Shown here one piece after another: positions 20,519 to 51,468 of a stretch of 64,000 nucleotides of DNA; within the stretch, counting starts at the first letter, position 1; each line of letters opens with the position of its first letter. This DNA is from Erythrobacter sp. HL-111 (GTDB lineage: Bacteria; Pseudomonadota; Alphaproteobacteria; Sphingomonadales; Sphingomonadaceae). The stretch covers positions 2,542,001 through 2,606,000 of the forward strand of contig NZ_LT629743.1 of the NCBI RefSeq assembly GCF_900105095.1, read 5' to 3'. A program made the translations under genes and the position numbers. A model generated the notes under the pieces. That model was given only the letters and a program-made list of their open reading frames with translations. It ran no database searches and had not been told where the DNA came from.

Positions 20519-20547
20519 TTGACAAAGACGTCGCTTCGGGCGAAATT
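20519..20547 (+). promoter_or_regulatory. Candidate promoter of the 20,575 operon
   Basis: TTGACA (20519-20524), 17-bp spacer, then a weak -10 GAAATT (20542-20547). The TTGTCCGGACAA operator begins at the last -10 base, so a bound repressor would block the start site. Confidence 0.4.
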
Positions 20548-20558
20548 TGTCCGGACAA
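20547..20558. promoter_or_regulatory. Island operator, copy 1 (TTGTCCGGACAA)
   Basis: Perfect 12-bp palindrome, 16 bp before the ATG of the methyltransferase gene. It is the leftmost of seven copies in the window and lies between putA and the first island operon. Confidence 0.75.
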
Positions 20559-20574
20559 CTTCACAGGTGACACC

Positions 20575-21789
20575 ATGGCCAGCGATCTTCCTCCTCCCTA
20601 CACTGCGCTCACCCGGCACGAGATGATGCCGCGCACGACTCACGACGAGGCGGCCCGGTTCAACTTCCTGACCCATTTCAACCGCTACCTGTCGGGGACC
20701 GTCGGGGCCGGGAACAAGCTCGCCTATGAAAGGCGCGTCCTTCCCGCCTTCCGCGCCGAACACGGGCGCGATCCCGAACATCGCTACGAGATCCGCGACG
20801 CGATGAACAAGGACCAGTGGCACCGCATGTGGTCCGCGCTCAAGCGCAATTCGATGGAGATGCGCCAGCATTTCGGGCGGCAGGTGGTGCTGCGCCAGAT
20901 CGACGAACTGGACGCGATGGCGCGGCAGTACAACGAACATTCGGGGATGCTCGAACTCGATCCGGCGGTGGAGCAGCCCGAATACCAGACCGCCGTCGAC
21001 ATCCATTGCCAGCCCGGCGGCTATCACGGCGGGGAACGCGCGGACGATGTCACCGTGGGGGCCAATTACGATGTCGGCCTGTTCGCCACGACCGGCGGCG
21101 CGCTGGGCGGGTTGAACGATGGCGGCGGGCAGGCCGTGGTCGAGTGGATCAGGGCCGAACGGCCCGACTGGAAGCCGCGCCGCATCCTCGATATCGGCTG
21201 CACGATCGGCCACAACGCGGTGCCGATCGCGCAGGCCTTCCCGGATGCCGAAGTGATCGCGATCGACACCGCGGCGGCTTCGCTGCGCTACGGTGCGGCG
21301 CGCGCGGCGGCGCTGGGGGTGAGGAACATCCGTTTCGTGCAGGCCTCGGGCGAGGACCTGTCGCGCTGGGCGGACGGGCATTTCGACTGGGTGCAGACGA
21401 CCATGTTCCTGCACGAGCTTTCGGCGCAGGCCATGCCGCGCATCCTGTCGGAAGCCAACCGCGTGCTCGCGCCGGGCGGGCTGATCCTGCATGTCGAGCA
21501 GCCGCAATATTCGGACGAAATGCCGCTGTTCGAACAGTTCATGCGCGACTGGGACGCGTTCAACAACAACGAGCCGTTCTGGTCGGCGATGCACGGGCTC
21601 GACCTGAAACAGGTCATGGCCGATGCCGGCTTCCCCCGCGACGCGCAGTTCACCGCCGGGGTGCGCGCGGTGGTCGACCCGGAGATATTCCCGCCCGCGC
21701 CCGATGACGGGGAGGAGGATTTCGGCCGCGCCGCGATCTGGAACGCCTATGGCGCCTGGAAGCCGCTCGCACGGGAAGCGGCCGCGTGA
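20575..21789 (+). CDS. SAM-dependent methyltransferase, copy A
   Basis: Class I methyltransferase of 404 residues. An N-terminal helical region of about 190 residues precedes the SAM fold: motif I is RILDIGCTIGHN (about 203-214), followed by the acidic strand-2 end EVIAIDTAAA and post-I VQTTMFLHELS. The substrate is unknown. A paralogue with the same layout is at 34818-36002 (shared DIH/DVH...PG.Y and D.GCT.GHN blocks). AGGTGA precedes the ATG. It overlaps the next small gene by 4 bp (GTGA), and the same gene pair recurs downstream, so the pair probably acts together. Confidence 0.85.
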   Translation: MASDLPPPYTALTRHEMMPRTTHDEAARFNFLTHFNRYLSGTVGAGNKLAYERRVLPAFRAEHGRDPEHRYEIRDAMNKDQWHRMWSALKRNSMEMRQHFGRQVVLRQIDELDAMARQYNEHSGMLELDPAVEQPEYQTAVDIHCQPGGYHGGERADDVTVGANYDVGLFATTGGALGGLNDGGGQAVVEWIRAERPDWKPRRILDIGCTIGHNAVPIAQAFPDAEVIAIDTAAASLRYGAARAAALGVRNIRFVQASGEDLSRWADGHFDWVQTTMFLHELSAQAMPRILSEANRVLAPGGLILHVEQPQYSDEMPLFEQFMRDWDAFNNNEPFWSAMHGLDLKQVMADAGFPRDAQFTAGVRAVVDPEIFPPAPDDGEEDFGRAAIWNAYGAWKPLAREAAA

Positions 21790-22157
21790 GCGGTTCGGGC
21801 GGGGAGCCGTTCGACTGGGTCGCGGCCTCGGGGCGCAAGGCCAGGGGCAGGCGGCCGGAATATTTCGACGATCCGGCGCTCGACCGGCTCTATTCGACCG
21901 TCTTCGCGCTCGCCGCCGAGGTTTCCGCCCTGCGCGAGCGGCAGGACACCGTCGAACGCCTGCTCGACGAGAAGGGCACGCTGAGCCGCGCGGACATCGA
22001 AAACTATGCGCCCGACCGCGCCGCGGGCGAGGAGCGCGGGCTCGCCACGCGCGCCTATGTCGCGCGGATCATGCGCGGCTTCCAGCAGGAGGTCGAGGCG
22101 ATGGAGGCATCCGATCCTCCGATCATGGACATCGTGGAGAAGCTCTCACGCGAATAG
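21786..22157 (+). CDS. Small helical partner of methyltransferase A
   Basis: A 123-residue soluble protein, mainly predicted helix, without signal or membrane segment. The core DDPALDRLYSTVFALAAEVSAL matches the core ADPAMDRFVAVVMNLAQEV of the 82-residue protein at 35999-36247, which also directly follows a methyltransferase. It starts with GTG at 21786, overlapping the upstream stop, so it is translationally coupled. It could be a subunit or chaperone of the methyltransferase (inference). No known family was recognised. Confidence 0.75.
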   Translation: MSGSGGEPFDWVAASGRKARGRRPEYFDDPALDRLYSTVFALAAEVSALRERQDTVERLLDEKGTLSRADIENYAPDRAAGEERGLATRAYVARIMRGFQQEVEAMEASDPPIMDIVEKLSRE

Positions 22158-22205
22158 GCGCCCCCGCGCCTGCCGCACCTTCATCGTTCGCCTGGGGAGG
22201 GGGAC

Positions 22206-22898
22206 ATGGAATTCCTGTATCTGAACGAATTGTCCATCCTCCGGTGGATCCACATCCTCGCAATGGTCTACTGGCTCGGCGGGGAATGGGGCGTCTTCCA
22301 GACGAGCTACCATGTGACCAATCCCGCGCTTTCGCTGGAGGAGCGGCGGCGGCACATGGAAACCGCCTATCGCATCGACATTCTCGCGCGCACGGGGATT
22401 GTCCTGCTGCTTCCGCTGGGGCTGCACATGGGCAAGATCTACGGCTTCGTGCCGCTGCTCGAGGGGGCGGGCGTGTGGGTGATGTGGCTGTTCTTCGCGA
22501 TGTGGCTGGCGATGACCTGGACCGCCTTCCTCAAGCGCGAGACCGATCTCGGCATCAAGGTCACCCGGGCCGAGGAATTGCTGCGCTATCCGCTGATCGC
22601 CGGGCTCTTCGTGCTCGCCGCCATGGCCTTTGCCGGGACCGGGCCGATCCGGTCGGGCGAGGGCAATGACTGGTATCCCGCGAAGATGGCGCTCTATGCC
22701 TTCGCGCTCGTCATCGGCCTTTTCCTGCGGCTCGTCATGCGCCGATGGACCGAACGGTTCCGCGTCCTCGCGCACGGACCGGACGCCGCGCAGGAGGCGG
22801 CGCTCGCGAAGGAAATCGGCCTCGCGCGGTGGTCGGCCTATGTCTACTGGATCACGATCGCATCGGTGTGCTTCCTCGGTGCGGTGAAGCCCTTTTGA
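22206..22898 (+). CDS. Multi-helix membrane protein, copy A
   Basis: A 230-residue inner-membrane protein with about five to six helices. Near the N-terminus it has RWIHILAMVYWLGGEWGVF, and it ends VCFLGAVKPF. The gene at 47045-47722 encodes a paralogue with HLLLFVLWLGADVGVF and FLGNVKPLQ at the same places. A His facing the first helix recalls haem- or copper-handling membrane proteins of the CopD type, but there is no proof. GGGGAGGGGG stands before the ATG. It follows the methyltransferase pair and precedes a DUF1330 gene. Confidence 0.8.
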   Translation: MEFLYLNELSILRWIHILAMVYWLGGEWGVFQTSYHVTNPALSLEERRRHMETAYRIDILARTGIVLLLPLGLHMGKIYGFVPLLEGAGVWVMWLFFAMWLAMTWTAFLKRETDLGIKVTRAEELLRYPLIAGLFVLAAMAFAGTGPIRSGEGNDWYPAKMALYAFALVIGLFLRLVMRRWTERFRVLAHGPDAAQEAALAKEIGLARWSAYVYWITIASVCFLGAVKPF

Positions 22899-22911
22899 GA
22901 AGGAGCCTGTC

Positions 22912-23226
22912 ATGCCCGCCTACATGATCGTCATCGCCTCGATCCGCGACCGCGAGGCCTTCGTTTCGGGCTACGGCGCGCGCGCGGCGGAGCTGATCGG
23001 GCAGTTCGGCGGAGAATACCTGCTGCGCGGGCCCGGCGCCGAATGCCTCGAGGGCGATTTCGGGGACGGCGCGAGCATGGTGATTTCCAGGTGGCCCGAC
23101 CGGGAAGCCGCCCGGCGGTTCTGGAACAGCCCCGAATATGCCGAGGCGAAGAAACTGCGCGAAGGCCTTGCCGAGGTGCAGGTGCTGCTGATCGACGGGC
23201 CCGATCTCAGTCCAGGATCTGGTTGA
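22912..23226 (+). CDS. DUF1330-type dimeric alpha/beta-barrel protein
   Basis: A 104-residue cytoplasmic protein that fits DUF1330: MPAYMIVIASIRDREAF at the start, then the RFWNSPEYAEAKKLRE block typical of the family. Members form ferredoxin-like dimers; their reaction is generally unknown. GAGAAGGAG precedes the ATG by 7 bp. It lies 13 bp after the membrane gene and is the last gene of this operon, with its end overlapping the end of the convergent VOC gene by 20 bp. A secreted relative is at 34306-34821. Confidence 0.85.
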   Translation: MPAYMIVIASIRDREAFVSGYGARAAELIGQFGGEYLLRGPGAECLEGDFGDGASMVISRWPDREAARRFWNSPEYAEAKKLREGLAEVQVLLIDGPDLSPGSG

Positions 23227-23794
23227 GCTCGATCAGGATCCCGTCGGGGTCGAAGAAATTGCACCCCTTCACCCGAATGTCCGCACCCCCGTCGCGGCCG
23301 GGATAGACCTGCAGGCGCGGCTCGGCGGTGAAGGTGACGCCGGGGATTTCCTTCGCCCTGGCGCAGCGGCCCTCGACATCGTCGGTGTTGAGCACCAGCA
23401 CGACATCGCCCGGCCCCATGCGCCGGGGATAGTCGCCAGCCGGGATCGCCGGATCGATCCATTCCATCAGCCCGATCCAGCCCACCCACGGATCGTTCGC
23501 GTTGAGCAGGACCAGCCGCGCGGTCGCCCCCGGCTCGCCCGCGGGCAGGGCCACGCCGCTCGTCTCGACGGTGGTGTCGTAGTTCACGGCAAGCCCGATC
23601 ACGTCGCGATACAGGCGAAGCGAGTTCTCGATGTCGCGCACGATGATCGTCGCGCGGCGCACATCGGTCGGCAGGCGTTCGGCGGGAGCATCGACTCCGG
23701 CCGCTTTGGGCCCGGAGGCGGCGTGCGGGGTCTCCTGCGCCATCGTCCCGCTGCATCCGGCCAGCAGCGCGGCCAGCAGTGCCGTCACCCTCAC
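23207..23794 (-). CDS. VOC-domain lipoprotein
   Basis: A 195-residue protein of the vicinal-oxygen-chelate (glyoxalase/dioxygenase) superfamily with a lipoprotein signal: LLAALLAGC places the lipid-bearing Cys at about residue 14. The VOC part follows (RRATIIVRDIENSLRLYRDV at the start, CNFFDPDGILIELNQIL at the end). An envelope-attached VOC protein is unusual; binding of the substrate or an intermediate is one possible role. It starts with GTG at 23794, overlapping the CoA-transferase stop (GTGA), and is the last gene of the seven-gene minus operon starting at 29766. Confidence 0.85.
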   Translation of the reverse strand: MRVTALLAALLAGCSGTMAQETPHAASGPKAAGVDAPAERLPTDVRRATIIVRDIENSLRLYRDVIGLAVNYDTTVETSGVALPAGEPGATARLVLLNANDPWVGWIGLMEWIDPAIPAGDYPRRMGPGDVVLVLNTDDVEGRCARAKEIPGVTFTAEPRLQVYPGRDGGADIRVKGCNFFDPDGILIELNQILD

Positions 23795-24972
23795 GCGCTC
23801 TCTCCCACCGCGCCGCCCGCGATCAGCGCGGCGATCCTCTCCTCGTCATAACCCAGGCCCGCCAGCACTGCGCGGGCATCGCGGCCCGGTTTCGGCAGGT
23901 GCTGGAGGCCGCCGATCCGCTTGCCGCCCATCTCGAGCGGGATGGTCGGCAGTCGCACTTCGGTGCCGTTGTCGAGCGTCACGTCCTCCAGCCCGCCCTG
24001 CTGCAGATGCGGATCGTCGAACATGTCTTCCGGCCTGCCGATCGGCGCGAAGGGCAGGCCGGATCCGTCGAGCTTCGCGATCACCTCCGCGCGCGTCATG
24101 GTGGCGACGAGTTCGCGGATGACGGGCAGGATGCGGTCCCTCGCCTCCACGCGCGCGTTGTTTTCGCGCAGGGATTCGTCGGCCCACAATTCGTCCAGGC
24201 CGAACAGCTTGCAGAACTTCTCCCACAGCGCATCGGTGACGACGCCGATGAAGACGGGTTCGTCCTTCGTTTCGAACACGTCGTAGATCGCCCAGGCGGA
24301 TACCCGCGCGGGCATGGGCGCCGCAGGGGTGCCGGTGACGGCATATTGCGCCATGTGCTGCCCGACGAGGTAGATCGTGGTCTCGAACAGGCTCGCCGTC
24401 ACCTTCTGCCCGCGCCCGGTGCGGTGGCGTTCCTCGAGCGCGGCAAGGATGCCGATCACCCCGAACATTCCGCCCGTCACGTCGATCACGCTTGCCCCTG
24501 CGCGCAGCGGTTTTCCCGGAGGGCCGGTCATGTAGGCGAGCCCGCCCATCATCTGCGCGACCTCGTCCAATGCCGTGCGCTGTTCGTAGGGGCCGGGAAG
24601 GAAGCCCTTTTCGCTGCAATAGATCAGCCGCTCGTTCGCCCGGGCGCAGCTTTCGTAATCGAGCCCGAGCCGGTCGAGCGCGCCGGGCCGGAAATTCTCG
24701 ACCAGCACGTCCGCGCCCGCGACCAGGTCCCTCGCGACCGCCATTCCGTCGGCGCTTTTCAGATCGAGGCAGATCGAGGCCTTGCCGCGATTGTACATCG
24801 GGAAATAGCCCGCGCCCGACCCCTTGAGCCGGCGCGTGCGGTCGCCGCCGATCGGCTCGACCCGCACGACTTCCGCGCCGAGCCCGGCAAGGATATGGCC
24901 CACGGTCGGCCCCATCACCATGTGGGTGAATTCGACGACCTTTATCCCGGCGAGCGGAGCGGGCGCGCTCAT
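23791..24972 (-). CDS. Family III CoA-transferase (CaiB/BaiF type), copy 1
   Basis: Moves CoA between carboxylic acids. At 393 residues it is family-typical; the catalytic aspartate is Asp164 in SVIDVTGGMFG, and the N-terminal block LAGIKVVEFTHMVMGPTVG is characteristic. It follows the LeuC, LeuD and HMG-CoA-lyase-type genes with a 4-bp overlap. In that setting it most simply activates a hydroxy-dicarboxylic acid made by the LeuCD-type enzyme so that the lyase can cleave it, as in citramalate pathways (inference). Two other family III genes are at 54092 and 55346. Confidence 0.92.
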   Translation of the reverse strand: MSAPAPLAGIKVVEFTHMVMGPTVGHILAGLGAEVVRVEPIGGDRTRRLKGSGAGYFPMYNRGKASICLDLKSADGMAVARDLVAGADVLVENFRPGALDRLGLDYESCARANERLIYCSEKGFLPGPYEQRTALDEVAQMMGGLAYMTGPPGKPLRAGASVIDVTGGMFGVIGILAALEERHRTGRGQKVTASLFETTIYLVGQHMAQYAVTGTPAAPMPARVSAWAIYDVFETKDEPVFIGVVTDALWEKFCKLFGLDELWADESLRENNARVEARDRILPVIRELVATMTRAEVIAKLDGSGLPFAPIGRPEDMFDDPHLQQGGLEDVTLDNGTEVRLPTIPLEMGGKRIGGLQHLPKPGRDARAVLAGLGYDEERIAALIAGGAVGESA

Positions 24973-25889
24973 CCGGCGACCCTCTGCCTGTAATCCAGCA
25001 TCGGCCCCGCATCGGGGGTGAAACCATAAAGCGGCTCGCCCGGCAGTGCCTCGGCCAGGATGGCGCGCACCTCGAGCAGTTTTTCGAGGTCGATCCCGGT
25101 CTTCAGCCCCATCGCATTGAGCATCAGCACGAGGTCCTCGGTCACGAGGTTCCCGCTCGCGCCGGGTGCGAAGGGGCAGCCGCCCAGCCCGCCTAGCGAG
25201 GCATCGAAGGTCTTGATCCCCTCCTCCAGCCCCGCGACGACATTGGCAAGGCCGAGCCCGCGCGTGTTGTGGAGGTGGAGCGTCGTCAGCTTGTCCGCGC
25301 CCACCGCCGCCCGGACCTTGCGGGTGAGCCTGCGGACCTGCGCCGGGTCGGCATAGCCGGTCGTGTCGGACAGCGAGAGTTCCCCGGCCCCCGCCTCGAC
25401 CGCCTTTTCGGCAAGGCGCACGACCTGATCTTCGGGCACCGCGCCTTCCATCGTGCAGCCGAAGGCGGTGGACAGGCCGACCGCGAAATGGATGCCGTGT
25501 TCGCGCGCGATGGCGGAGGCCGCCGCGATTTCCGCGATCATGGCGGGATGGTCCTTGCGCACGTTCTTGATCGAATGGGTCTCGCTCATCGAGAAGGGGA
25601 TGGACATGGCGTGCACGCCCGCCTCGGCGGCACGCTCCGCGCCTTTCGCATTGGGCACGAGCGCGACCACGGTCAGCCCCTCGATCCCGCGCGCGAAGGC
25701 GACCAGTTCGGCCGTGTCGGCCATCTGGGGCAGGAGTTTCGGCGGCACGAAGCTGCCGACCTCGATCTCCTTCACGCCGGCGGCCGCTTCGGCCGCGATC
25801 CAGCGCTTCTTCGCGTCGAGAGGCATCACCCGGTCGATCGATTGCAGCCCGTCGCGCGGGCCGACTTCGGATACGAGGATGTCGGTCAT
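24969..25889 (-). CDS. HMG-CoA lyase-type C-C lyase
   Basis: TIM-barrel lyase of the HMGL/DRE family, 306 residues. The metal and base residues are visible: VGPRDGLQ (Arg12, Asp13), LHLHN (His205, His207) and the flexible-loop Cys238 in GLGGCPFAPGASGN. It may cleave 3-hydroxy-3-methylglutaryl-CoA, but no leucine-catabolic partners are adjacent. The neighbours (LeuCD-type hydro-lyase, CoA-transferase) fit citramalyl-CoA or a branched homologue better; HMGL-fold citramalyl-CoA lyases are known. It overlaps both neighbours by 4 bp. Confidence 0.9.
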   Translation of the reverse strand: MTDILVSEVGPRDGLQSIDRVMPLDAKKRWIAAEAAAGVKEIEVGSFVPPKLLPQMADTAELVAFARGIEGLTVVALVPNAKGAERAAEAGVHAMSIPFSMSETHSIKNVRKDHPAMIAEIAAASAIAREHGIHFAVGLSTAFGCTMEGAVPEDQVVRLAEKAVEAGAGELSLSDTTGYADPAQVRRLTRKVRAAVGADKLTTLHLHNTRGLGLANVVAGLEEGIKTFDASLGGLGGCPFAPGASGNLVTEDLVLMLNAMGLKTGIDLEKLLEVRAILAEALPGEPLYGFTPDAGPMLDYRQRVAG

Positions 25890-26506
25890 GCGTGTGTCTC
25901 CAGATAGACCCAGGGCCGCGTCCTGCGATCGGCTTCGGTCCATTTCTCGATCGCCGCAGCCTGCGTCAACGTGAGGTCGATCGCGTCCAGCCCCTCGGCC
26001 AGCATTCGCTTCGCCTCGGGATCGATCTCGAAAGCGTGGACCTCGCCCCGGCAGCGGACCTCCTGCGCGGCAAGGTCGATCTCGACCGCTTCGCCCGCGA
26101 TCCGTTCCAGCACCGCGCGCGGAAGGGCGACGGGGAGTAGAAAATTGCGGATGCAATTGCCGCGGAAGATCGGCGCGAAGCTTTCGGCCAGCACCGCCCG
26201 GAACCCGTATTCGGCAAGCGCCCAGACCGCGTGTTCGCGGCTCGACCCGCAGCCGAAATTGGACCCTGCGACAAGGATCGCGGCGTTGCAGTATTCGGGG
26301 CGGTTGAGGACGAAATCGGGATCGGGCGTGCGCGCATCGGCATCGCTGTAGCGCCACGGCGCGAACAGGCCCTCGGCCAGTCCCGTGCGTCCGGTCGAGC
26401 GCATTTCGCGGCTCGGGATGATCGCGTCGGTATCGACATTGTCGGCGAGCCCGCTGACATGGAGCGGCGCGGCGATCCCGGCGAGCGGTTGGGGAAAGGA
26501 GTTCAT
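25886..26506 (-). CDS. LeuD-type hydro-lyase small subunit
   Basis: Swivelling small subunit of an aconitase-superfamily hydro-lyase, 206 residues, with NVDTDAIIPSREMRS at the start and GSNFGCGSSREHA in the substrate-binding loop. It pairs with the large subunit encoded just upstream (4-bp overlap). The pair looks like isopropylmalate isomerase, but the context has no leucine biosynthesis genes. A dedicated hydratase for citraconate-, maleate- or dimethylmaleate-type acids is more likely (inference). It overlaps the HMGL-type gene by 4 bp. Confidence 0.9.
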   Translation of the reverse strand: MNSFPQPLAGIAAPLHVSGLADNVDTDAIIPSREMRSTGRTGLAEGLFAPWRYSDADARTPDPDFVLNRPEYCNAAILVAGSNFGCGSSREHAVWALAEYGFRAVLAESFAPIFRGNCIRNFLLPVALPRAVLERIAGEAVEIDLAAQEVRCRGEVHAFEIDPEAKRMLAEGLDAIDLTLTQAAAIEKWTEADRRTRPWVYLETHA

Positions 26507-27882
26507 GCCGGCTCCTCCAGCCTCGCATATTCGCGCGGGTCGGCGATTCGGCCCGCGATCGCGCTCGCCGCGACGGTTTCGGGTGAGGCGATGTGGGTGC
26601 GGATGCCGGGGCCTTGCCTTCCTTCGAAATTGCGGTTCGTGCTGGATATGACGCGCGAGCCTTCGGGAAAGCCCTCGCCGCCCGCGTAGAAGCACAGCGA
26701 GCAGCCGCTCATGCGCCATTCGAACCCGGCGGCGGCGAACACCGCGTCGAGCCCCTCGGCCTCGGCCGCGCGCTTGACCGAGAGCGAGCCGGGGACGACC
26801 AGCGCCTTGCGGATCGACGGCGCGATGCGGCGACCTTTCAGGATCGCGGCGGCGCGGCGCAGGTCGGACAGGCGCGCATTGGTGCAGCTGCCGATGAAGG
26901 CGGCATCGACGGGCGTTCCCGCAAGCGGCGTGCCAGGATCGAGCCCGATATAGTCATGCGCGCGCGCCGGACCCTGCGGCACCACCGCGGTGACGGGAAC
27001 GGCGTGTTCGGGGCTCGTCCCCCAGCTCACCATCGGGGCGATTTCCGCGGCGTCGATGACGATCTCGCGGTCGAACCTGGCGTCCTCGTCCGAACGGAGG
27101 CTGTTCCAGTAGGGGTCATCGAAGCTCGCGGGCGCATAGGGCCGACCTGCGAGATAGTCGAACACCGTCTCGTCGGGCGCGATCAGGCCGGTCATCGCGC
27201 TGAATTCGGTTGCCATGTTGCACAGGGTCATGCGCGCTTCCATGTCGAGCGCGCGCACCGCCTCGCCCGCGAATTCGACCACGTGCCCCGCGCCCCCGCC
27301 CGCGCCGTGGCGGGCGATGAGGGTGAGGATCATGTCCTTCGCCGTCACGCCGGGCGAAAGCGCGCCCTTGAACGTGACGCGCATCGTCTTCGGCCGGTCG
27401 AGCCGCAGCGTTCCCGTCACCATCGCGTGTTCGGCCTCGGACGAACCGATCCCCCAGGCGAGCGCGCCGAAGGCCCCTTGCGTGCAGGTGTGGCTGTCGG
27501 GCGCGACGAGGGTTAGTCCGGGCAGGACGATGCCCTGTTCGGGGGAAATGACGTGGACGATCCCCTGCGCGCTGTCATTGACGTCGAACAGGGTGATCCC
27601 GGCCTTGCGGCAGGCGGCGCGGGTTTCGGTGATGAAGCCCTCTCCGCCCGGCATCAGGGTCCCGTCGCCCCGGCCCGGCCGCGTGTCGACGATGTGGTCC
27701 ATCACGGCGAAGACCCGCGCGGGATCGCGCAGGCGGCGGCCCATCTCGGCCATCCGCGCGAGGGCGGCGGCGCCGGTGCGTTCGTGCAGGAACACCCGGT
27801 CGATCGCGACCAGGGCCGCGCCGCCCGCCGTTTCGGCGACCATGTGCGCGTCCCAGATACGCTCGAACAGCGTGCGTCCCAT
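26503..27882 (-). CDS. LeuC-type 4Fe-4S hydro-lyase large subunit
   Basis: Aconitase-family large subunit of 459 residues. The cluster ligands Cys333 (FIGSCTNAR), Cys394 and Cys397 (MSGCSLC) are all present, and SSTNRNFEGRQG is intact. The stretch after the last ligand reads FYAGGEGFPEGSR, where ordinary LeuC proteins have a LAMNPD-like sequence, which suggests a changed substrate. The enzyme should add water to, or remove it from, a dicarboxylic acid. GGAG precedes the ATG. It lies 7 bp after the calycin-like gene and leads the LeuC-LeuD-HMGL-CoA-transferase group. Confidence 0.9.
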   Translation of the reverse strand: MGRTLFERIWDAHMVAETAGGAALVAIDRVFLHERTGAAALARMAEMGRRLRDPARVFAVMDHIVDTRPGRGDGTLMPGGEGFITETRAACRKAGITLFDVNDSAQGIVHVISPEQGIVLPGLTLVAPDSHTCTQGAFGALAWGIGSSEAEHAMVTGTLRLDRPKTMRVTFKGALSPGVTAKDMILTLIARHGAGGGAGHVVEFAGEAVRALDMEARMTLCNMATEFSAMTGLIAPDETVFDYLAGRPYAPASFDDPYWNSLRSDEDARFDREIVIDAAEIAPMVSWGTSPEHAVPVTAVVPQGPARAHDYIGLDPGTPLAGTPVDAAFIGSCTNARLSDLRRAAAILKGRRIAPSIRKALVVPGSLSVKRAAEAEGLDAVFAAAGFEWRMSGCSLCFYAGGEGFPEGSRVISSTNRNFEGRQGPGIRTHIASPETVAASAIAGRIADPREYARLEEPA

Positions 27883-27889
27883 GTGCTCC

Positions 27890-28396
27890 TCAGGCGCCGT
27901 GCCGGGCCTTCATTTCCGCGTCGACCTTGCGCCAGTCCTTCGTCACGAAGACCTCCTGGATCGCGGTGCGCGTTTCCAGCTTGCCGTCGCGGATCCAGTG
28001 CCAGGTGCGGCAGCGGTTCTTGCCGTCGTCCGAAATCTGGATCTGTTCGTAGAGATAGAGCGTGGGATCGCCCGTGCGCTGCCAGTAGAGCATCATCGTG
28101 CGGTTCCTGTCGTCGAGCGGGACTTCGGCCGCCCAGCCCTGGATCAGTTCGTTGTCCCACCAGATGCGCCCGTCGCGAAAGGTCGCGGGAAAGTCGCGCA
28201 CTTCGGTCCTGCCGTCGGGCCAGGTGTAGTGATTCGTCTGATGGTAGGGAATCTCGTCGTCGCCCGTGATCCGGCAGAGCAGGCGGCTGGCGTGTTCGTC
28301 GACCTTTTCGTTGTCGGCGTTGAAATAGGTGTAGGTCCCGTCCCACACCCCTTCGTGACGGGCGAGCAGCGGCATTTCCTTGGCCATGTCGATCAT
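27890..28396 (-). CDS. Calycin-like small protein, copy A
   Basis: A 168-residue soluble protein made mostly of predicted beta strands and rich in Trp/Tyr. It begins MIDMAKEMPLLARHEGVWDG and has the pattern HEG.WDG.Y..Y, later W.DGR..., and TWHWIRDGK. The 154-residue product of 33845-34309 has the same marks (HEGWWDGWYRHY, TWEDGRSA, TWQWFRDGR), so they are paralogues, one in each divergent operon. The shape recalls lipocalin/DUF3598-like barrels that bind small hydrophobic molecules; this is a guess. GGAGAG precedes the ATG, which overlaps the upstream stop. Confidence 0.75.
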   Translation of the reverse strand: MIDMAKEMPLLARHEGVWDGTYTYFNADNEKVDEHASRLLCRITGDDEIPYHQTNHYTWPDGRTEVRDFPATFRDGRIWWDNELIQGWAAEVPLDDRNRTMMLYWQRTGDPTLYLYEQIQISDDGKNRCRTWHWIRDGKLETRTAIQEVFVTKDWRKVDAEMKARHGA

Positions 28397-29798: not shown

Positions 29799-29810
29799 TT
29801 GTCCGGACAA
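29799..29810. promoter_or_regulatory. Island operator, copy 2 (TTGTCCGGACAA)
   Basis: Perfect copy in the 191-bp region between the divergent operons starting at 29766 (-) and 29958 (+). One site could control both. It is 32 bp from the minus start codon, so it probably overlaps the minus promoter. Confidence 0.75.
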
Positions 29811-44277: not shown

Positions 44278-46853
44278 CAGAAATCGTACCTGGCCCTGAC
44301 CATCCAGGTGCGCGGCGGGTTGAGATAGGCGAAATCGGCGAGCGAGCTTTCGACCGCTTCCTCGTCGAAGCAGTTGCGGCATTCCGCCGTCAGCGCCCAC
44401 CCGCTCACGTTGCGAAGGGTGAGCGTGCCGTTGACGATCCAGCGCGCCGGGCTGAACGAACCGGTCGCCGGGTCGATCGGATCGCCGAGGCCAAGCGTGT
44501 TGGTCGGATAGACCGTGCCCGAATTGCCCGTCACCGACTGGTCGAAGAAGGTCACCTGGCTGGTGCCGACATCGCTGTCGCTGCGCCAGTTGGCGTTGAC
44601 CGCCGGGGTCAGCGTGAAATCGCTGCCGAGGCCGATATCGTAGCTGCCGCCGAGCGAGACCGTCCAGTCGGGCGTGCGCACCGGGGTCGAGATCGACCCG
44701 TCGGGCGAAACGATGCCGACCCCGCAGGCGCCCGCTTCGTCCGGCCCGCCGCCGATATTGGGCAGCAGTCCGGCGGCGAGCTGGGCAAGGCAGTCCTGCT
44801 GCTGCGCGGCGACCGACTGCACGCCGAATTCGTCGAGCGCGGGGGCATTGGGATCGATGTCGTACCGATCGTCCTGGTAACCGATCGCGGCGAACAGGTT
44901 GAGCCCTTCGATCGGGACCGTGGTGATCTCGACCTCGACGCCCTTGTTCTCGTAGTCGGCGAAATTGCGCGTGATGAAGGTGAGCGCGCCATCGGCCGCG
45001 ACGAAAGCCGACGGGGTCTGGAGATCCGCCACGTCGAGCCAGAAACCGGTGACGTTGAACCGGATCAGGCGATCGAACAGCTCGGTCTTGGCGCCGACTT
45101 CGTAGCTCCACGCGGTTTCCGGGCCGAACGGAAGCAGCAGGTTGGCCGTGGTGCCGCGCGCGTTCCAGCCGCCCGACTTGAAGCCGCGCGTCGCGCTGGC
45201 GAAGAGCAGGATGTCGTCGTTCGGCGAGTAGTTGATGGCGAAGCGCGGGGTCCACAGGTCGACCGATTGTTCGGTCGGGATCGCCGCGCCGTTGCTCGCG
45301 ACGAGATTGGCGTCCTCGATGCAGGGCGACGGGCCGAACTGGTTGGGCGCGCTGCACAGGTTCGTGCCGTCCACCCGCGCGCGGTTGTCGCGGATCGAGA
45401 AGGTCTTGGTCTCGTCGGTGTAGCGGATGCCCGCCGTCAGGGTCAGCTCATCGGTGATGTTGAGATCGGCCTGGAAATAGCCCGCCCAGGCTTCGGCCGT
45501 GTTGGTGAGCGTGCGGTCGGCGAGAAGCAGCGGAAAGCCGTCCGGGGCCGGCGCGATGGGAAGGGTGAAGATGTCGGCGAAATCGGTCGTGTTGTCCTCG
45601 TAGAAGTAGAACACGCCGCCAACGACATCGAGCAGGCCGTCCGCGATCGAGCCGGTGAACTTCACTTCCTGCGTGAACTGGGTGTGATCGCCGTCATTGA
45701 TGATGTCGAAGCCGCCATAGGTCCACCCGACCACCGGCGGAACCGGGTTGGAGGCGTCCGGCAGGGATCGGCCATCGGCGAAATCGAGCGCGAACTGCTG
45801 CCCGATATCGACGAAGCCGGTGATGAAATTCACGGTCCAGTCGTCATTGATGTCGATTTCGAGATTGGACGAGATGAAATCCATCGTCGCTTCGTTGCCG
45901 AGGCCGAAATTGGCCTTTTCGCCGCTGACCAGCGGGCCGAAGGCAGGGCTGATGAAATTGCCGTCCTTCGTCAGGCCGGTCGCGGTGAAGCGTCCGTCGC
46001 AATTGGTCGGATTGGTCGGGTCGCAATCGAAATTGAGCAGGTTGACCGCTTCCGACACGGTGTGGATGTACGAGCCCGTCCAGCGCACGCTGTCCGACAA
46101 TTCGCCGCGCATCCCCAGCCGCACGCCCCAGCCGTCGTTCTCGTTGGCGCGTTCGCCGGTAACATTGTTGATCGCCCAGCCGTCGTCGTCCTGCCAGTAG
46201 CCCGAGATCTTGACCGCGAAGCTGTCCGCCAGCGGGATGTCGACCGAGGCACGGGCGAGATATTGTTCGTAGGAGCCATAGCCCGCTTCGACATAGCCGG
46301 CGAATTCGTCGCCCGGTTCGGACAGGAAGACATTGATCGCGCCGCCGGTCGTGTTGCGTCCGAACAGGGTGCCCTGCGGTCCGCGCAGGACCTCGATGCG
46401 GTTGACGTCGAACAGCGACAGGTTGTTCGCGTTTTGGCGCGAGAGATAGATGTCGTCGACGTAGGTGCCGATCGGCGGATCGAAGGTCGCGATGCTTTCC
46501 GTGTTGCCGATCCCGCGCAGGTAATAGGCATTCGCCGTGCCGAGGCCCGTGTTGTTGAGCCCGACGAGGTTGGGCACGAACTGCGCCACGTCGAGCGCGG
46601 TGAACGCGCCGCGGGCCTGCAATTCCTGCTGGTCGAAGGCCGAGATCGGGATCGGCACGTCCTGCACGCTTTCCTCGCGCCGCTGGGCGGTCACGATGAT
46701 TGAGGTCACCCCGCGCTCGGGTTCTTCCTCGACGACCTCCCGGTCGGGGTCCTGGTCGAGGTCCTGCGCGTGGGCGGTCGCGGGGAACGCGGCAATGGCG
46801 AGACTCGATGTCATGCCGAGCAGCGCGAGCTGCTTCGAAGTGCGAGAAGTCAT
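44277..46853 (-). CDS. TonB-dependent outer-membrane receptor 1
   Basis: 858-residue receptor with a signal peptide (about 33 residues, ending AHA), a TonB-box-like TSIIVTAQRREESVQ segment, a plug domain (NAYYLRGIGNTES, VLRGPQGTLFGRNTTGG), and a 22-strand barrel ending in RARYDF with terminal Phe. It should import a scarce or bulky substrate using TonB energy. GGAGGAAAT gives a good ribosome site for ATG 46853; an ATG at 46874 is less well supported. First gene of the minus operon to 37290, read from the region with operator copies 3 and 4. Confidence 0.95.
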   Translation of the reverse strand: MTSRTSKQLALLGMTSSLAIAAFPATAHAQDLDQDPDREVVEEEPERGVTSIIVTAQRREESVQDVPIPISAFDQQELQARGAFTALDVAQFVPNLVGLNNTGLGTANAYYLRGIGNTESIATFDPPIGTYVDDIYLSRQNANNLSLFDVNRIEVLRGPQGTLFGRNTTGGAINVFLSEPGDEFAGYVEAGYGSYEQYLARASVDIPLADSFAVKISGYWQDDDGWAINNVTGERANENDGWGVRLGMRGELSDSVRWTGSYIHTVSEAVNLLNFDCDPTNPTNCDGRFTATGLTKDGNFISPAFGPLVSGEKANFGLGNEATMDFISSNLEIDINDDWTVNFITGFVDIGQQFALDFADGRSLPDASNPVPPVVGWTYGGFDIINDGDHTQFTQEVKFTGSIADGLLDVVGGVFYFYEDNTTDFADIFTLPIAPAPDGFPLLLADRTLTNTAEAWAGYFQADLNITDELTLTAGIRYTDETKTFSIRDNRARVDGTNLCSAPNQFGPSPCIEDANLVASNGAAIPTEQSVDLWTPRFAINYSPNDDILLFASATRGFKSGGWNARGTTANLLLPFGPETAWSYEVGAKTELFDRLIRFNVTGFWLDVADLQTPSAFVAADGALTFITRNFADYENKGVEVEITTVPIEGLNLFAAIGYQDDRYDIDPNAPALDEFGVQSVAAQQQDCLAQLAAGLLPNIGGGPDEAGACGVGIVSPDGSISTPVRTPDWTVSLGGSYDIGLGSDFTLTPAVNANWRSDSDVGTSQVTFFDQSVTGNSGTVYPTNTLGLGDPIDPATGSFSPARWIVNGTLTLRNVSGWALTAECRNCFDEEAVESSLADFAYLNPPRTWMVRARYDF

Positions 46854-46927
46854 GCGGATTTCCTCCGTGGGCAAAGGATGATGCCGGCCCCCTGCCGGTC
46901 TGTCGTTGCCTACCTGCGAGGCGAAAG

Positions 46928-46939
46928 TTGTCCGGACAA
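46928..46939. promoter_or_regulatory. Island operator, copy 3 (TTGTCCGGACAA)
   Basis: Perfect copy between TonB receptor 1 (-) and the membrane gene at 47045 (+). On the minus strand it lies in the spacer/-10 zone behind a TTGACA at 46954-46949, as expected of a repressor site. Its centre is 42 bp (four helical turns) from copy 4. Confidence 0.75.
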
Positions 46940-46958: not shown

Positions 46959-46969
46959 GGAAATGCGAA

Positions 46970-46981
46970 TTGTCCGGACAA
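46970..46981. promoter_or_regulatory. Island operator, copy 4 with extra half-site
   Basis: Perfect TTGTCCGGACAA followed one base later by a half-site TTGTCCGA (46983-46990). It is nearer the plus gene at 47045, so copies 3 and 4 may serve the two directions separately or together through looping. Confidence 0.75.
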
Positions 46982-47044
46982 ATTGTCCGATTCCATCAAT
47001 ATGCGTGCCGTTTCGGCAACAGTTCCGCTTGCAAGGGGGTGTCC

Positions 47045-47722
47045 GTGTCCGATTTCGCCTATCCGGTCCTGGTCTATGTCCACCTGCTGCTGTTCGTGCT
47101 GTGGCTCGGCGCGGACGTGGGCGTGTTCGTGCTCGGCCAGCATTTCAGGAAGCGGGAGAAGTGGTCGCTCGACCAGCGCATCGCCCTCCTCACCCTCCTC
47201 GTCGAAATCGACATGGTCCCGCGCAGCGCCTGGGCGCTGATGGTGCCGCTGTCGCTCAGCGTGGTCGATGCGGGCGGCTGGTGGGACGTGCCGGCCTGGC
47301 TGCTGCTGGCGGCCTGGGCGGTGGGGCTGTTCTGGCTCGCGCTGGTGTGGGATTCGCACTGGCACGACCAGACCCCGCGCGCGGCGCGCAACCGCCGGAT
47401 CGAAGGCGTCCTGCGGTGGGTGATCGGGGGATTCTATCTCTGGCTCGGCGGGCAGAGCCTGCTGCTGGACGCCCCGCTCGCGCCCGATTGGCTGGCGTGG
47501 AAGGGACTGCTGTTCGGCCTGATATTCGTCGCCGCGATCATGATCGACGTGACCTTCAAGCCGGTCGGCGCGCAGCTCGCCGCGGTGCTGCAGGAAGGAT
47601 CGAGCGACGCGACCGAGATCCCTCTGCGCCGGACGATGGACCGCACCCGGATCTGGGTTTGGGCGGTCTATGTCCTGCTGGCCGTCACCGCCTTCCTCGG
47701 CAACGTCAAACCGTTGCAATGA
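47045..47722 (+). CDS. Multi-helix membrane protein, copy B
   Basis: 225 residues with about six predicted helices; paralogue of the protein at 22206-22898 (HLLLFVLWLGADVGVF near the start, SLDQR....EIDMVPRS in the middle, FLGNVKPLQ at the end). A His of helix 1 is kept in both. Start chosen as GTG at 47045 because AAGGGGG lies six bases before it; GTG 47039 is also in frame. It may be a redox or metal/haem membrane partner; no function is proven. It is followed by TonB receptor 2 with a separate operator copy. Confidence 0.78.
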   Translation: MSDFAYPVLVYVHLLLFVLWLGADVGVFVLGQHFRKREKWSLDQRIALLTLLVEIDMVPRSAWALMVPLSLSVVDAGGWWDVPAWLLLAAWAVGLFWLALVWDSHWHDQTPRAARNRRIEGVLRWVIGGFYLWLGGQSLLLDAPLAPDWLAWKGLLFGLIFVAAIMIDVTFKPVGAQLAAVLQEGSSDATEIPLRRTMDRTRIWVWAVYVLLAVTAFLGNVKPLQ

Positions 47723-47760
47723 TCCCTCACCCGGACCCCGTTCGGAGGCGGCGAAAAAAT

Positions 47761-47772
47761 TTGTCTGGACAA
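47761..47772. promoter_or_regulatory. Island operator, copy 5 (one mismatch, TTGTCTGGACAA)
   Basis: Differs from the consensus at one central base. It lies 38 bp after the membrane gene and 82 bp before the start of TonB receptor 2, so this receptor probably has its own regulated promoter. Confidence 0.65.
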
Positions 47773-47854
47773 ATTGCGGACATCGGGCAGGAATAAAGCG
47801 GGGTCATATTGTTACGCGGGCGCCATGAGCGACGCAATTAACGGGAGGGGATTC

Positions 47855-50347
47855 ATGGGGAAACTTGCCTGTTCGGCCCTGCTGGCAGCGACCATGCTGA
47901 CGCCGAGCGCGCTTCTGGCGCAGGAGGCGGACGAGGAAGAGGTCAGCATCGCGGAGCGCGACGCGCCGATCATCGTCACCGCGCGCAAGCGTGAAGAGAC
48001 GTTGCAATCGGTCCCGTCGACCGTTGCCGTCGTCACCTCCGAGACGATCACCGAACTCGCGCTCGACAATCTCGAGGAGATCGCCAACACCACGCCCGGC
48101 CTGTTCTACGACGAGAGCCTCGGGCGCGGCGGCGGCGCCGCATTCCGCCCGGTGATCCGCGGCCAGGCCAACATCCTCGGCGAATCCGGCGTCGCCTTCT
48201 TCATCGACGGGATCTACTACACCGGCAGTCTTGCCGATTACGACGTCGACACGATCGAGCGGATCGAGGTCGTGAAGGGTCCGCAGAGCGCGCTCTACGG
48301 CCGCAACACCTATTCGGGCGCGATCAACATCATCTCGAAGAAGCCGGGCGACACGTGGGAAGGGCGCCTTGCCCTCGATGCCTCGACACAGGATCGCTAC
48401 GAGATCACGGCGGGCATCCGCGGGCCGATCACCGACGGGCTCTCGCTCGGCCTCAACGGACGCTATTACGATTTCGGCGGCGAGTTCACCAACCAGTTCG
48501 ACGGGACCAAGATCGGGAAGCAATCCTCCTGGTCGGCTTCCGGCGTGCTCGACTGGGACGATGGCGGGCCCTTCACCGCGACTTTCCGGGCCTATTACAA
48601 CCGCACCGACGACGGCCAGCCGGCGCTGTTCCAGCAGGACGCGAACCAGAACAACTGCTTCTTCGACAATGGCTCGCTCTACGGCGGGCGGGGGCGCTAT
48701 TTCTGCGGGCGGATCGACGCGCAGCCGATCAGCACCGACTACACCCGCCAGTTCATCAATCCCGCGGACGTCGGGATCGAGGCGGACACCTACAACGTCT
48801 CGCTGCGCATGGCATATGAATTCAGCGACAGGCTCAGCCTCGTCTCGCTGACCGGCTTCAACGACCGGACCGAATCGCAGCTTACCGACGGGGACTACAG
48901 TCCCGAAAGCTTCCAGACGGCCGTCTTCGCGCGGTTCCCGATCGGCGCGCCGGTCGGCTTCGGCCCGGCGGGTCCGGTCTTTCCCTTCGGCTTCGTCGGC
49001 AGCACGGTCGACTTCTCCTTCGCCGGGCGGAGCGAGCTGACCGACTGGTCGCAGGAATTGCGGCTCAACTACGACGGCGACGGGTTCGACCTCGTGCTCG
49101 GCGGCTACTTCTTCGACCAGAGCGACGACAATTTCTCGATCCGCGAGGTCCCGGCCGACGCGCTGGCGCGCGCGGGGGCGAGCTTCGGCGCGCGGTTCGC
49201 GGAGGAACAGGCGGGCTGCGCGGCCAATCCGGCCTGCGCCTCGATCGTGCCGCTGTTCGGTCCCTCCCTGCCCGAGATGCGCGACGAGACGCGGCGCAAC
49301 ATCGAGAACATCGCGGTGTTCGGCGCGGTCAACGTCGAACTGACGCCGACGCTCAACCTCTCGCTCGAAGGGCGCTATGCCGAGGAGACGATCGAGCAGG
49401 TCCTGTTCGATTTCGACGAGGGGCAGCAGCGCCCGGCAGGCGAGGTGTTCGAACCGCAGAAGTTCACCTCGTTCACGCCGCGCGTCACGCTCGACTGGCA
49501 GGCGACGCCCGACAACCTGATCTACGCGGTCTATGCCGAGGGCATCAAGCCGGGCGGCTTCAACAACGTGCTGGCCCGCAATGCCGGCCTCGCGGCATTC
49601 GAAGAGGAAGAGAACAAGGCCTACGAAATCGGCTTCAAGAATGCCTTCTTCGACGGGGCGATGATCTTCAACCTCGCGGCGTTCTTCACCGATATCGAGG
49701 GTTACCAGCTCTCGCAGAATGTCGAGGGCGGCGGCCAGACCTTCAGCGCCACCGTCAACGCGGGCGCGGCGGAAATCTGGGGCATCGAGGCCGAAATGGT
49801 CGGGCGGCTGGGCGATTTCACCCTGACCGCGAATTACGCGCTGGCCGACACCGAGTTCGTCGAAGGCTTCGACGAACAGCAGGGCATTCTCAACGATGTC
49901 GCCGACGACGGTCTCGTCAACTGTTCGACCGGGGACCAATTCCCCGACATCCCGGATTGCCAGAGCCTGTTCGGCTCGATCGCGGGCAAGGACATCCCGC
50001 GTGCGCCCGAACACCGCGTGTTCGCGGACCTCGCCTACCAGACGCCGCTCGGCGGTGGCATGGAGGAATGGAGCTTCTTCGCCGGGGCGAACATGACCTA
50101 CACCTCGAGCTCCTTCGCGCAGGTCCACAACGAGGCCTTCAGCGGCGATGCGACCGAGGTCGATGCGCGCATCGGGGTCGAGAACGACCGCCTGCGCATC
50201 CAGTTCTATGCCGAGAACCTGTTCGAAGAGGACGCCGTGCGCCAGATCCTGCGCTTTGCCGACGGCAACAACGATTTCCGCCGAAGCTTCGTCGCGGCGC
50301 CGCGGCCGGGCCGGCGGGTCGGGCTGCTGGTCGTCTCGACCTTCTGA
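47855..50347 (+). CDS. TonB-dependent outer-membrane receptor 2
   Basis: 830-residue receptor. ATG 47855 follows GGGAGGGG and starts the signal peptide GKLACSALLAATMLTPSALL-AQ; an ATG at 47825 in frame is not supported by a ribosome site. The plug has PIIVTARKREETLQSVP and VVKGPQSALYGRNTYSGAIN; the barrel runs to the end with terminal VVSTF. It is only distantly like receptor 1, so the two may take up different forms of the substrate. Operator copy 5 precedes it, and a strong hairpin follows. Confidence 0.95.
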   Translation: MGKLACSALLAATMLTPSALLAQEADEEEVSIAERDAPIIVTARKREETLQSVPSTVAVVTSETITELALDNLEEIANTTPGLFYDESLGRGGGAAFRPVIRGQANILGESGVAFFIDGIYYTGSLADYDVDTIERIEVVKGPQSALYGRNTYSGAINIISKKPGDTWEGRLALDASTQDRYEITAGIRGPITDGLSLGLNGRYYDFGGEFTNQFDGTKIGKQSSWSASGVLDWDDGGPFTATFRAYYNRTDDGQPALFQQDANQNNCFFDNGSLYGGRGRYFCGRIDAQPISTDYTRQFINPADVGIEADTYNVSLRMAYEFSDRLSLVSLTGFNDRTESQLTDGDYSPESFQTAVFARFPIGAPVGFGPAGPVFPFGFVGSTVDFSFAGRSELTDWSQELRLNYDGDGFDLVLGGYFFDQSDDNFSIREVPADALARAGASFGARFAEEQAGCAANPACASIVPLFGPSLPEMRDETRRNIENIAVFGAVNVELTPTLNLSLEGRYAEETIEQVLFDFDEGQQRPAGEVFEPQKFTSFTPRVTLDWQATPDNLIYAVYAEGIKPGGFNNVLARNAGLAAFEEEENKAYEIGFKNAFFDGAMIFNLAAFFTDIEGYQLSQNVEGGGQTFSATVNAGAAEIWGIEAEMVGRLGDFTLTANYALADTEFVEGFDEQQGILNDVADDGLVNCSTGDQFPDIPDCQSLFGSIAGKDIPRAPEHRVFADLAYQTPLGGGMEEWSFFAGANMTYTSSSFAQVHNEAFSGDATEVDARIGVENDRLRIQFYAENLFEEDAVRQILRFADGNNDFRRSFVAAPRPGRRVGLLVVSTF

Positions 50348-50369
50348 CAGGGCCGGTCGGCCGACCGGA

Positions 50370-50404: not shown

Positions 50405-50425
50405 CGCGTGGCCGATGCCGAAGGG

Positions 50426-51364
50426 TCAGTGCCCTTCGTGGCCTCCGGCGGCCTTGTCGGCCTTGCCTTCGGCGCGCGCCCGGTCGGTCAGCAGCTTGAA
50501 CTTGGTCCAGGTCGTCTCGTTGGGGCGCATGTCGTCCTTGGGCGGGGCGTCCTCGTAGATCGGGAAGTTCGCGCGGATCTCGCTTTTCAGCACGTCGGGC
50601 AGTTCCTCGAACCCGCCCGGCAGCTTGCGCCCCATGGCGTTGAAGACCATCTGGCCCGGCCGGCCGCCCATCTTCATCCAAGGGGCCCAGGGCGAGATGC
50701 GGACCCAGCTTATCAGCGGATAGGCGGTGGGCAGCGAGGCATCGAACAATTCGTCCCTGTCGGCGGCGAAGTCGAAGATCTCCATCGCGTGATACCTGTT
50801 GCCGACATATTCCTGGTATTCCCCCGCGAGCGGGTTGGGATAGAACAGCGGCGCCTCGAACGGCATGAAGACGTAATCGCCCTCGATCCTGAGGCTGGAC
50901 AGTGCGAAGGGCGAGCCGTCGGGCCGCACCGGGAAACTGGGCGGCTGGTTCACGGGGTCATTGTGGATATGCATCACGTCGACCGTCTCGCCGGTATAGG
51001 GGTTCTCCCAGCGGTTCACGACCTCGCCGGTCCGGGGGTCGAGCATGAGCATGAGTTCGCGGCTGATGAGCCGCCAGCCCTTGCCGCGTTCCGGGTCCTC
51101 CACCTCGACGCAGCGGCGGATGTTCATGCCTTCGCCCTTGAACAGCAGCTTGTCGCGGATTCCCGGCGCACGGCCGTAGATGTTGCCCGACCAGTGGAAC
51201 ACCGCCGGCTCGTCGGCGGAGACCCCGCACTGCATCCGCTTCGCGATCTCGACGGCGTCCTCCGGGTCGGAAGGGTCGAGCATCTGCGCCGCGGCAGGCG
51301 CCGCAAGCCCCGCGGTGCCTGCCAGCATGGTCGCTGCAACCAAAACGGCCTTGATCGATTTCAT
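50426..51364 (-). CDS. Exported DUF1838-type protein
   Basis: 312 residues with a signal peptide (KSIKAVLVAATMLAGTAGLAAPAAA-QM). The mature part resembles DUF1838: FHWSGNIYGRAPGIRDKLLF, followed by MLDPRTGEVVNRWENPYTGE and a His-rich tail (GGHEGH). The reaction is unknown; such genes often stand beside TonB receptors and degradative genes in sphingomonads. ATG 51364 follows GGGGAGGCGAG. It is alone on the minus strand, divergent from the CitE operon, with operator copies 6 and 7 between them. Confidence 0.75.
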   Translation of the reverse strand: MKSIKAVLVAATMLAGTAGLAAPAAAQMLDPSDPEDAVEIAKRMQCGVSADEPAVFHWSGNIYGRAPGIRDKLLFKGEGMNIRRCVEVEDPERGKGWRLISRELMLMLDPRTGEVVNRWENPYTGETVDVMHIHNDPVNQPPSFPVRPDGSPFALSSLRIEGDYVFMPFEAPLFYPNPLAGEYQEYVGNRYHAMEIFDFAADRDELFDASLPTAYPLISWVRISPWAPWMKMGGRPGQMVFNAMGRKLPGGFEELPDVLKSEIRANFPIYEDAPPKDDMRPNETTWTKFKLLTDRARAEGKADKAAGGHEGH

Positions 51365-51412
51365 GGTTCTCGCCTCCCCTGCGGGCATCCATCCGTCGGA
51401 TGGCCGACCCGT

Positions 51413-51424
51413 TTGTCCGGACAA
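51413..51424. promoter_or_regulatory. Island operator, copy 6 (TTGTCCGGACAA)
   Basis: Perfect copy, 49 bp before the DUF1838 start on the minus strand and 39 bp (centre to centre) from copy 7. It fits control of the minus gene. Confidence 0.75.
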
Positions 51425-51439
51425 ATCAGCAATTCCTCC

Positions 51440-51468
51440 TTGACTTTAGATTTGTCCGGACAAATTGT
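51440..51468 (+). promoter_or_regulatory. Candidate promoter of the CitE operon
   Basis: TTGACT (51440-51445), 17-bp spacer and a weak -10 AATTGT (51463-51468). Operator copy 7 fills the spacer, a classic repressor position. Confidence 0.45.
51452..51463. promoter_or_regulatory. Island operator, copy 7 (TTGTCCGGACAA)
   Basis: Perfect copy inside the candidate promoter of the CitE/MaoC/ACAD operon, followed by a partial half-site ATTGTGA. Confidence 0.75.

Follow-up and report, generated by a model that had tools for sequence, protein, structure and literature searches.

What reads a palindrome that recurs between the operons of a single degradation cluster, and what would its reader do to the genes around it? 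The question is raised by a 64,000-nucleotide stretch of the Erythrobacter sp. HL-111 genome (the window; positions 2542001-2606000 of the 3,191,868-base single contig, G000:C1), in which exact copies of the 12-base palindrome TTGTCCGGACAA precede genes belonging to a single catabolic cluster (about 46 kb). We propose, with a probability of roughly 0.85, that this palindrome is the operator of a GntR/HutC-type regulator encoded in the same cluster (56455-57228, reverse strand), which would block the cluster promoters until it is released by a ligand.

Seven palindrome copies and their uniqueness in the genome

A pattern scan of the window recovered six exact copies and one copy with a single mismatch (47761) at the places given by a first-pass annotation of this DNA, and zero copies in the left 20 kb, where none had been noticed. 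Genes were predicted from coding bias, protein families and conservation, and operons from spacing and strand (individual genes are described in the last section); the copies were scored with a 20-base profile built from the sites of relatives. Copy 1 (20547-20558, exact, profile score 33.5) lies at the junction of PutA (-) and MT1 (+) and ends 16 bases 5' of the MT1 ATG, and copy 2 (29799-29810, exact, 34.7) occupies the ABH (-)/ISO (+) junction. Copies 3 (46928-46939, exact, 26.2) and 4 (46970-46981, exact, 30.4) stand 42 bp apart in the divergent junction of TonB1 (-) and mem23 (+), followed by the one-mismatch copy 5 (TTGTCTGGACAA; 47761-47772, 34.5) located 5' of TonB2. Copy 6 (51413-51424, exact, 24.3) is close to the start of the DUF1838 gene and 39 bp from copy 7 (51452-51463, exact, 34.9), which lies between the -35-like and -10-like elements of the putative CitE promoter and of a putative reverse promoter toward DUF1838. 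The spacings of 39 and 42 bp between paired copies recur in several relatives. The claim that every copy stands between genes at an operon head held: all seven lie outside the predicted genes and mark five gene heads or divergent junctions. Not all heads are marked, the one shared by the regulator and PrpD1 having no copy. The extended consensus of the palindrome is AAATTTGTCCGGACAAATTT.

The seven sites are real and distinct, because profile scores, shuffles and the genome scan set them apart. They score 24.3-34.9 with the profile, whereas the next place in the window reaches 4.8 and the top-scoring places of ten randomised windows reach 3.6-15.9. Dinucleotide shuffles (n = 100, up to two mismatches allowed) averaged 1.28 matches, and 0 of 100 reached seven. 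Across the contig these six are the only exact copies (reversed control, 0 in 3.19 Mb), and one-mismatch matches are found at 47761 and at one further place, 2477907. When up to two mismatches are allowed, the forward-strand count is at background level (37 matches for the palindrome vs 72 for the reversed control), and the pattern TTGTNNNNACAA occurs eight times in the genome, seven of these being the sites described here (reversed control, 4). A genome scan for copies at unrelated genes, set beforehand as a test that could refute a regulon, found zero exact copies outside the cluster. A chance origin of the copies was rejected on the shuffles, the profile scores and the genome and one-mismatch scans. 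A full-text literature search, with most of the subscription literature lying outside it, gave one match for the palindrome in print, a Drosophila stem-cell paper.

Conservation at gene heads and tracking with the regulator

The palindrome was followed through 80 loci, the best 80 of 536 relatives obtained by scanning a species-genome collection with the regulator alignment; we take these loci to be from Sphingomonadales, some being labelled more broadly. Their combined 1.495 Mb contains 124 exact copies and a further 66 with one mismatch, and 67 of the 80 have an exact copy, compared with 0 exact and 1 one-mismatch copy in one round of a first-order Markov-randomised control. With sites up to 30 bp from the end of a gene match counted as outside, and genes lacking a window homologue ignored, 182 of the 190 sites fall outside matched genes; of the remaining eight, seven fall within the 5' part of PrpD1, next to the start of the divergent regulator gene, and one is inside CaiB3 (L149). 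Five of the 190 sites are without a gene head. The first genes next to the sites are mostly the window's own (13 of 204 unmatched) and point to no clear substrate.

Upstream of CitE, which was matched in 62 of the 80 loci, the palindrome is present in 62 of 62 regions and is the top 12-mer, tied with its own one-base shifts. It also precedes DUF1838 (37/39), mem23 (34/45) and TonB1 (19/25), where it ranks among the top four 12-mers, behind or level with its shifts. The corresponding counts are 2 of 64 regions for MaoC, 4 of 80 for the regulator and 0 of 64-71 regions each for ACAD, CaiB3, PrpD1, SDR, PuuE3, PaaK and ECH. Exact and one-mismatch sites within 400 bp 5' of the regulator gene were found in 16 of the 80 loci (4 exact, 12 one-mismatch), and genome G012 has an exact copy 5' of this gene. 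The sites are confined to the heads of linked operons and are conserved at orthologous promoters, as in a local regulon.

The distribution of the palindrome was compared with that of the regulator in 120 genomes, 73 from the genus (HL-111 included) and 47 from outside it. All 20 ortholog carriers of the genus (65-100% identity) have 1-8 exact copies, compared with one copy each in 4 of the 53 genomes without an ortholog (Fisher p 2.5e-14, with genomes taken as independent and kinship uncorrected); G061, with a weak regulator match of 25% identity, was counted as ortholog-less. In three of these four genomes (G007, G042 and G067, the fourth being G029) the longest open frame over the copy has 166-323 codons, and no cluster-gene match was found in the 3-kb locus. 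Outside the genus, 28 of the 47 genomes have a weaker regulator match, and the two best of these (36-38% identity) carry six (G074) and four (G084) copies; one copy each was found in 2 of the 19 genomes without a regulator match. In G074, which belongs to another family and has a 36%-identical regulator, five of the six exact copies adjoin matched cluster genes (ISO; hyp18; HMGL1/CaiB1; TonB1/mem23; LeuC), and the regulator is itself preceded by a one-mismatch copy. The MaoC protein has a close match in 28 of the 120 genomes. Five of these are without a regulator match (G077, G083, G094, G098 and G102) and have 0, 0, 1, 0 and 0 copies, the single one lying within an open frame of 415 codons that has no cluster gene in its vicinity. 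Separately, a single copy was noted at loci L045 and L046 (G087, G081), where the DNA is AT-rich and an SDR-like gene lies nearby; a regulator of 35-36% identity is encoded about 31 kb away.

The proposed reader and competing explanations

The putative reader is a 257-amino-acid protein with an N-terminal GntR winged helix (PF00392, 76.2 bits vs a cut-off of 27) and a C-terminal UTRA domain (PF07702, 76.3 bits vs a cut-off of 23.8). Three GntR-type proteins were found in the genome in all, and this one is the sole UTRA protein found. Its nearest solved relatives by sequence are NagR/YvoA, and the predicted structural model matches NagR/YvoA, DasR, PhnF and a HutC C-terminal domain, with a predicted template modelling score (pTM) of 0.55 and an uncertain domain arrangement.

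NagR/YvoA, a GntR/HutC protein of Bacillus subtilis with dre sites, shares the two-domain architecture and gives the best sequence and fold matches in the PDB, whereas its identity to the regulator is only about 24-25%. According to PMC4333415, in the NagR-DNA complex Arg48 reads G-4, Arg38 reads G-5 and the wing residue Gly69 enters the minor groove. Residue equivalences were counted by hand along the regulator-NagR alignment, and conservation was read from 21 aligned proteins (A1; L018, L021 and L032, which have a stop inside the matched stretch, as well as L034 and L036-L040 were omitted). The recognition arginine and the wing glycine are kept as Arg58 and Gly79, neither varying among the 21 proteins, whereas the G-5-reading arginine is replaced by Thr48 (Thr in 18, Ser in 1 and Asn in 2 proteins). 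In the palindrome the half-site carries G at -4 and T at -5; it shares G-4, T-3 and C-2 with the dre half-site and differs at -5. The base-reading residues would fit this half-site, Arg58 with G-4 and Thr48 with T-5, a correspondence that is suggestive only. Two further differences are that native NagR sites are imperfect palindromes (PMC4333415), whereas six of the seven sites here are perfect, and that the genes apparently controlled here form a degradation cluster, no amino-sugar genes being seen. DasR of Streptomyces, another GntR/HutC protein with a sequence and fold match to the regulator, is termed a global regulator in the title of PMC4918961, in contrast to the local regulon with seven sites proposed here.

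The site-aligned CitE promoters (n = 62) have the consensus TTgaCT from 12 bases 5' of the site and ATTgtg 3' of it (capitals, at least 85%; small letters, at least 60%), which reads TTGACT-17-AATTGT with the operator within the spacer. For the regions upstream of DUF1838 (n = 37) the consensus is TTCACA-17-TAAAGT, again enclosing a site of this kind; the copy at 51452 has a reverse-strand promoter-like match at 51471-51443, as in this consensus. The promoter assignments at CitE and DUF1838 are tentative. An operator between -35-like and -10-like elements fits the position of a blocking repressor, and at CitE, the best-sampled promoter, the repressor-like placement proposed earlier was borne out.

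We assign the palindrome to the HutC-type protein because this is the sole UTRA protein found in the genome, lies in the cluster, is tracked by the copies and has base-reading residues that appear to fit. A regulator dimer would bind one palindrome, and at the CitE/DUF1838 junction, where the operator fills the spacer between the -35-like and -10-like elements, the bound protein would exclude RNA polymerase. Binding of a pathway substrate or intermediate to the UTRA domain would then cause the protein to leave the DNA, and the genes for uptake (two TonB receptors and the MFS protein) and breakdown would be expressed jointly. Binding, repression and ligand release are what we infer here, the release at the UTRA domain from the protein family.

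Several observations weigh against this assignment or narrow its reach. The -10-like words match TATAAT in only three (AATTGT) and four (TAAAGT) of six places, and it is for this reason that the promoter calls are tentative. The first-pass annotation had several copies overlapping -35/-10-like hexamers; this stood at the CitE junction by the comparison of relatives and in one of five regions by a strict sigma-70 consensus scan, in which a promoter-like match lay around the site in one region, beside the site in another and was absent from the remaining three. The pairing of Thr48 with T-5 is no more than suggestive because in the sites of NagR, which does have the second arginine, one half often carries T at -5 as well (PMC4333415). 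In this genome neither the regulator nor the PrpD1 operon is preceded by a copy (junction at about 57229-57257, best nearby profile score -15.6), so that the site expected of an autoregulated gene is absent here, and in 64 of the 80 loci no site was found within 400 bp 5' of the regulator, a few loci ending early. Because the 80 loci were picked by means of the regulator, share members with the genus set and are related to one another, their counts are non-independent. Among the 28 weaker-match genomes outside the genus, 20 have no copy and six have one, and G118 has the MaoC gene and a 33%-identical regulator with zero copies; the link between palindrome and regulator thus appears limited to close relatives of the protein. 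Finally, two of the four copies in G084 have only TonB-like neighbours (28-30% identity) and the other two have no matched neighbour. The proposal that the copies define a regulon was nevertheless upheld, with no exact copies elsewhere in the genome, the same gene heads marked across Sphingomonadales and a distribution that tracks one GntR/HutC regulator. The interpretation as a regulon has good support, and the regulon is of a known kind.

Four other explanations were weighed. The HutC-type protein could read the palindrome and act mainly as an activator or by looping between paired sites, for which the 39- and 42-bp spacings could favour cooperative binding. Activators, however, rarely sit between -35 and -10 elements, where the CitE operator appears to lie. 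The solved relatives NagR and DasR are moreover termed repressors, and we consider this mode improbable.

Reading of the palindrome by the FadR-type (GntR + FCD) protein of the extended window (75839-76510; G000 2617839-2618510) has still less in its favour. This protein is one of just three of the GntR type in the genome, its FCD domain was found, its gene is about 19 kb from that of the HutC-type protein, and the FadR and HutC subfamilies both use GT..AC half-sites. It probably owns, however, another palindrome, TTGTATACAA, which lies about 98 bp before its own gene and in the gap between the divergent HMGL2 (HMG-CoA-lyase-like) and CaiB4 genes, and the FadR-type neighbour was rejected as the reader on the position of this palindrome. 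TTGTATACAA occurs exactly twice in the genome, at G000:C1:2614873 and 2618608 (L177, L178; about 72873 and 76608 in the extended window); its reversed control also gives 2, so that the argument is one of position and not of number. The 80 loci extend 10 kb past the regulator, and the FadR-type gene lies beyond their reach. TTGTATACAA is probably the own operator of the FadR-type protein and marks a second small regulon, which resembles that of the HutC-type protein in a palindrome placed at gene heads and differs from it in subfamily (FCD), palindrome and number of sites (two).

An unlinked regulator elsewhere in the genome, with the HutC-type gene a bystander, is a little less probable again. 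The absence of a copy before the HutC-type gene in this genome would be expected under such an arrangement; the copies before the regulator in 16 of the 80 relatives' loci, the zero counts in four of the five genomes with MaoC and no regulator match, and the apparent fit of the base-reading residues argue for the HutC-type protein. A general repeat, mobile element or hairpin/terminator signal, which a multi-copy perfect palindrome might bring to mind, has almost no chance of being correct, being contradicted by the genome scan, by conservation at corresponding promoters across many genera and by the lack of an Rfam match to any known RNA element in the window.

Genes of the cluster and a candidate pathway

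Copy 1 heads MT1 (UbiE-like methyltransferase) and hyp3, which matched no family (20575-22157, +), followed downstream by mem4, a membrane protein by inspection without a family, and a DUF1330 protein (22206-23226, +); PutA is divergent from the MT1 operon across copy 1. Copy 2 heads two predicted operons. The first (23207-29766, -) comprises ABH (alpha/beta hydrolase), NBlike1, LeuC, LeuD (aconitase C domain), HMGL1 (HMG-CoA-lyase-like), CaiB1 and VOC1, and the second (29958-36002, +) comprises ISO (isochorismatase domain), PuuE1 and PuuE2 (polysaccharide-deacetylase/PuuE-like), ALDH, NBlike2, DUF1330b and MT2. NBlike1 and NBlike2 are our own labels.

Copies 3 and 4 head the predicted operon of TonB1, VOC2, a serine hydrolase of the beta-lactamase fold, an MFS protein, an FAD oxidase, a C-N hydrolase and hyp18 (37290-46874, -), as well as mem23 (47039-47722, +), a membrane protein by inspection whose gene order is kept in relatives. 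The FAD-linked oxidase gene (39170-40732, -) is interrupted by an in-frame TAG, and this inner stop is absent in G063, G004 and G012. Copy 5 heads the TonB2 receptor gene (47825-50347, +). Copies 6 and 7 head the DUF1838 gene (50426-51364, -) and a predicted operon encoding a CitE/RipC-like lyase, a MaoC/RipB-like hydratase, an acyl-CoA dehydrogenase (ACAD), CaiB2 and CaiB3 (51522-56446, +). The DUF1838 protein is kept beside the operator and has a beta-rich predicted fold, for which a PDB comparison gave no convincing match (best E 2.3e-3, TM about 0.2); its alignment (A2) contains 27 of 36 available sequences.

Divergent from the regulator, and with no operator at its head here, a predicted operon of two MmgE/PrpD proteins, a PaaK-like ligase, an amidase, a HapK-like protein and an SDR (57258-63419, +) runs past the window. 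Beyond it lie genes for a third PuuE-like protein, an enoyl-CoA hydratase (ECH), a caprolactamase-like HyuAB, HMGL2, CaiB4, a DDE transposase and the FadR-type GntR. The transposase gene (PF13701; extended window 74341-75711, L150) is found at the cluster edge, between CaiB4 and the FadR-type gene. Pfam scans support PrpD2, the C-N hydrolase, LeuD, VOC2, ECH, the transposase, CaiB4, ISO, the three PuuE-like proteins and the FCD-type GntR, and gave no match for mem23, mem4, NBlike1 or NBlike2. The RipB, RipC, PuuE and caprolactamase models matched below their curated cut-offs, so that these names denote a kind of enzyme and not a reaction.

The region of 20-64 kb together with L150 has an unusual density of amide, imide and lactam hydrolases along with hydratases and CoA-lyases, and the isochorismatase-domain protein ISO is close to N-carbamoylsarcosine amidohydrolase. 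The three PuuE-like proteins, ISO, the C-N hydrolase, the amidase and the caprolactamase-like HyuAB point to opening of a nitrogen ring and removal of amide nitrogen, while LeuCD, PrpD, CaiB and the CitE-like and HMG-CoA-lyase-like proteins suggest that a branched dicarboxylate is then hydrated, activated with CoA and split. These annotations suggest that the cluster serves nitrogen-heterocycle breakdown, for which maleimides from tetrapyrrole breakdown would fit as a candidate substrate. A speculative and, taken as a whole, rather unlikely extension is an undescribed aerobic Sphingomonadales route for pyrrole-derived cyclic imides or lactams (e.g. heme, bilin or chlorophyll maleimides). In such a route ring opening would fall to the imidase-like PuuE proteins and the caprolactamase-like HyuAB, and nitrogen removal to amidases; LeuCD/PrpD would hydrate the alkylmaleate, CaiB activate it and the CitE-like and HMG-CoA-lyase-like enzymes split it, with the HutC-type repressor sensing an intermediate. 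Literature searches on sphingomonad GntR/UTRA regulons, Erythrobacter GntR palindromes, imide, pyrrole and tetrapyrrole degradation and DUF1838, with subscription literature largely outside their range, gave no title describing such a cluster among the matches listed.

Taken together, a regulator, an exact operator and a co-controlled gene set offer a way into a large degradation cluster whose distribution is patchy and which occurs in many Sphingomonadales. A reporter built on the operator could reveal the inducer and, through it, the substrate, and the operator copies may flag which other genes belong to the pathway.

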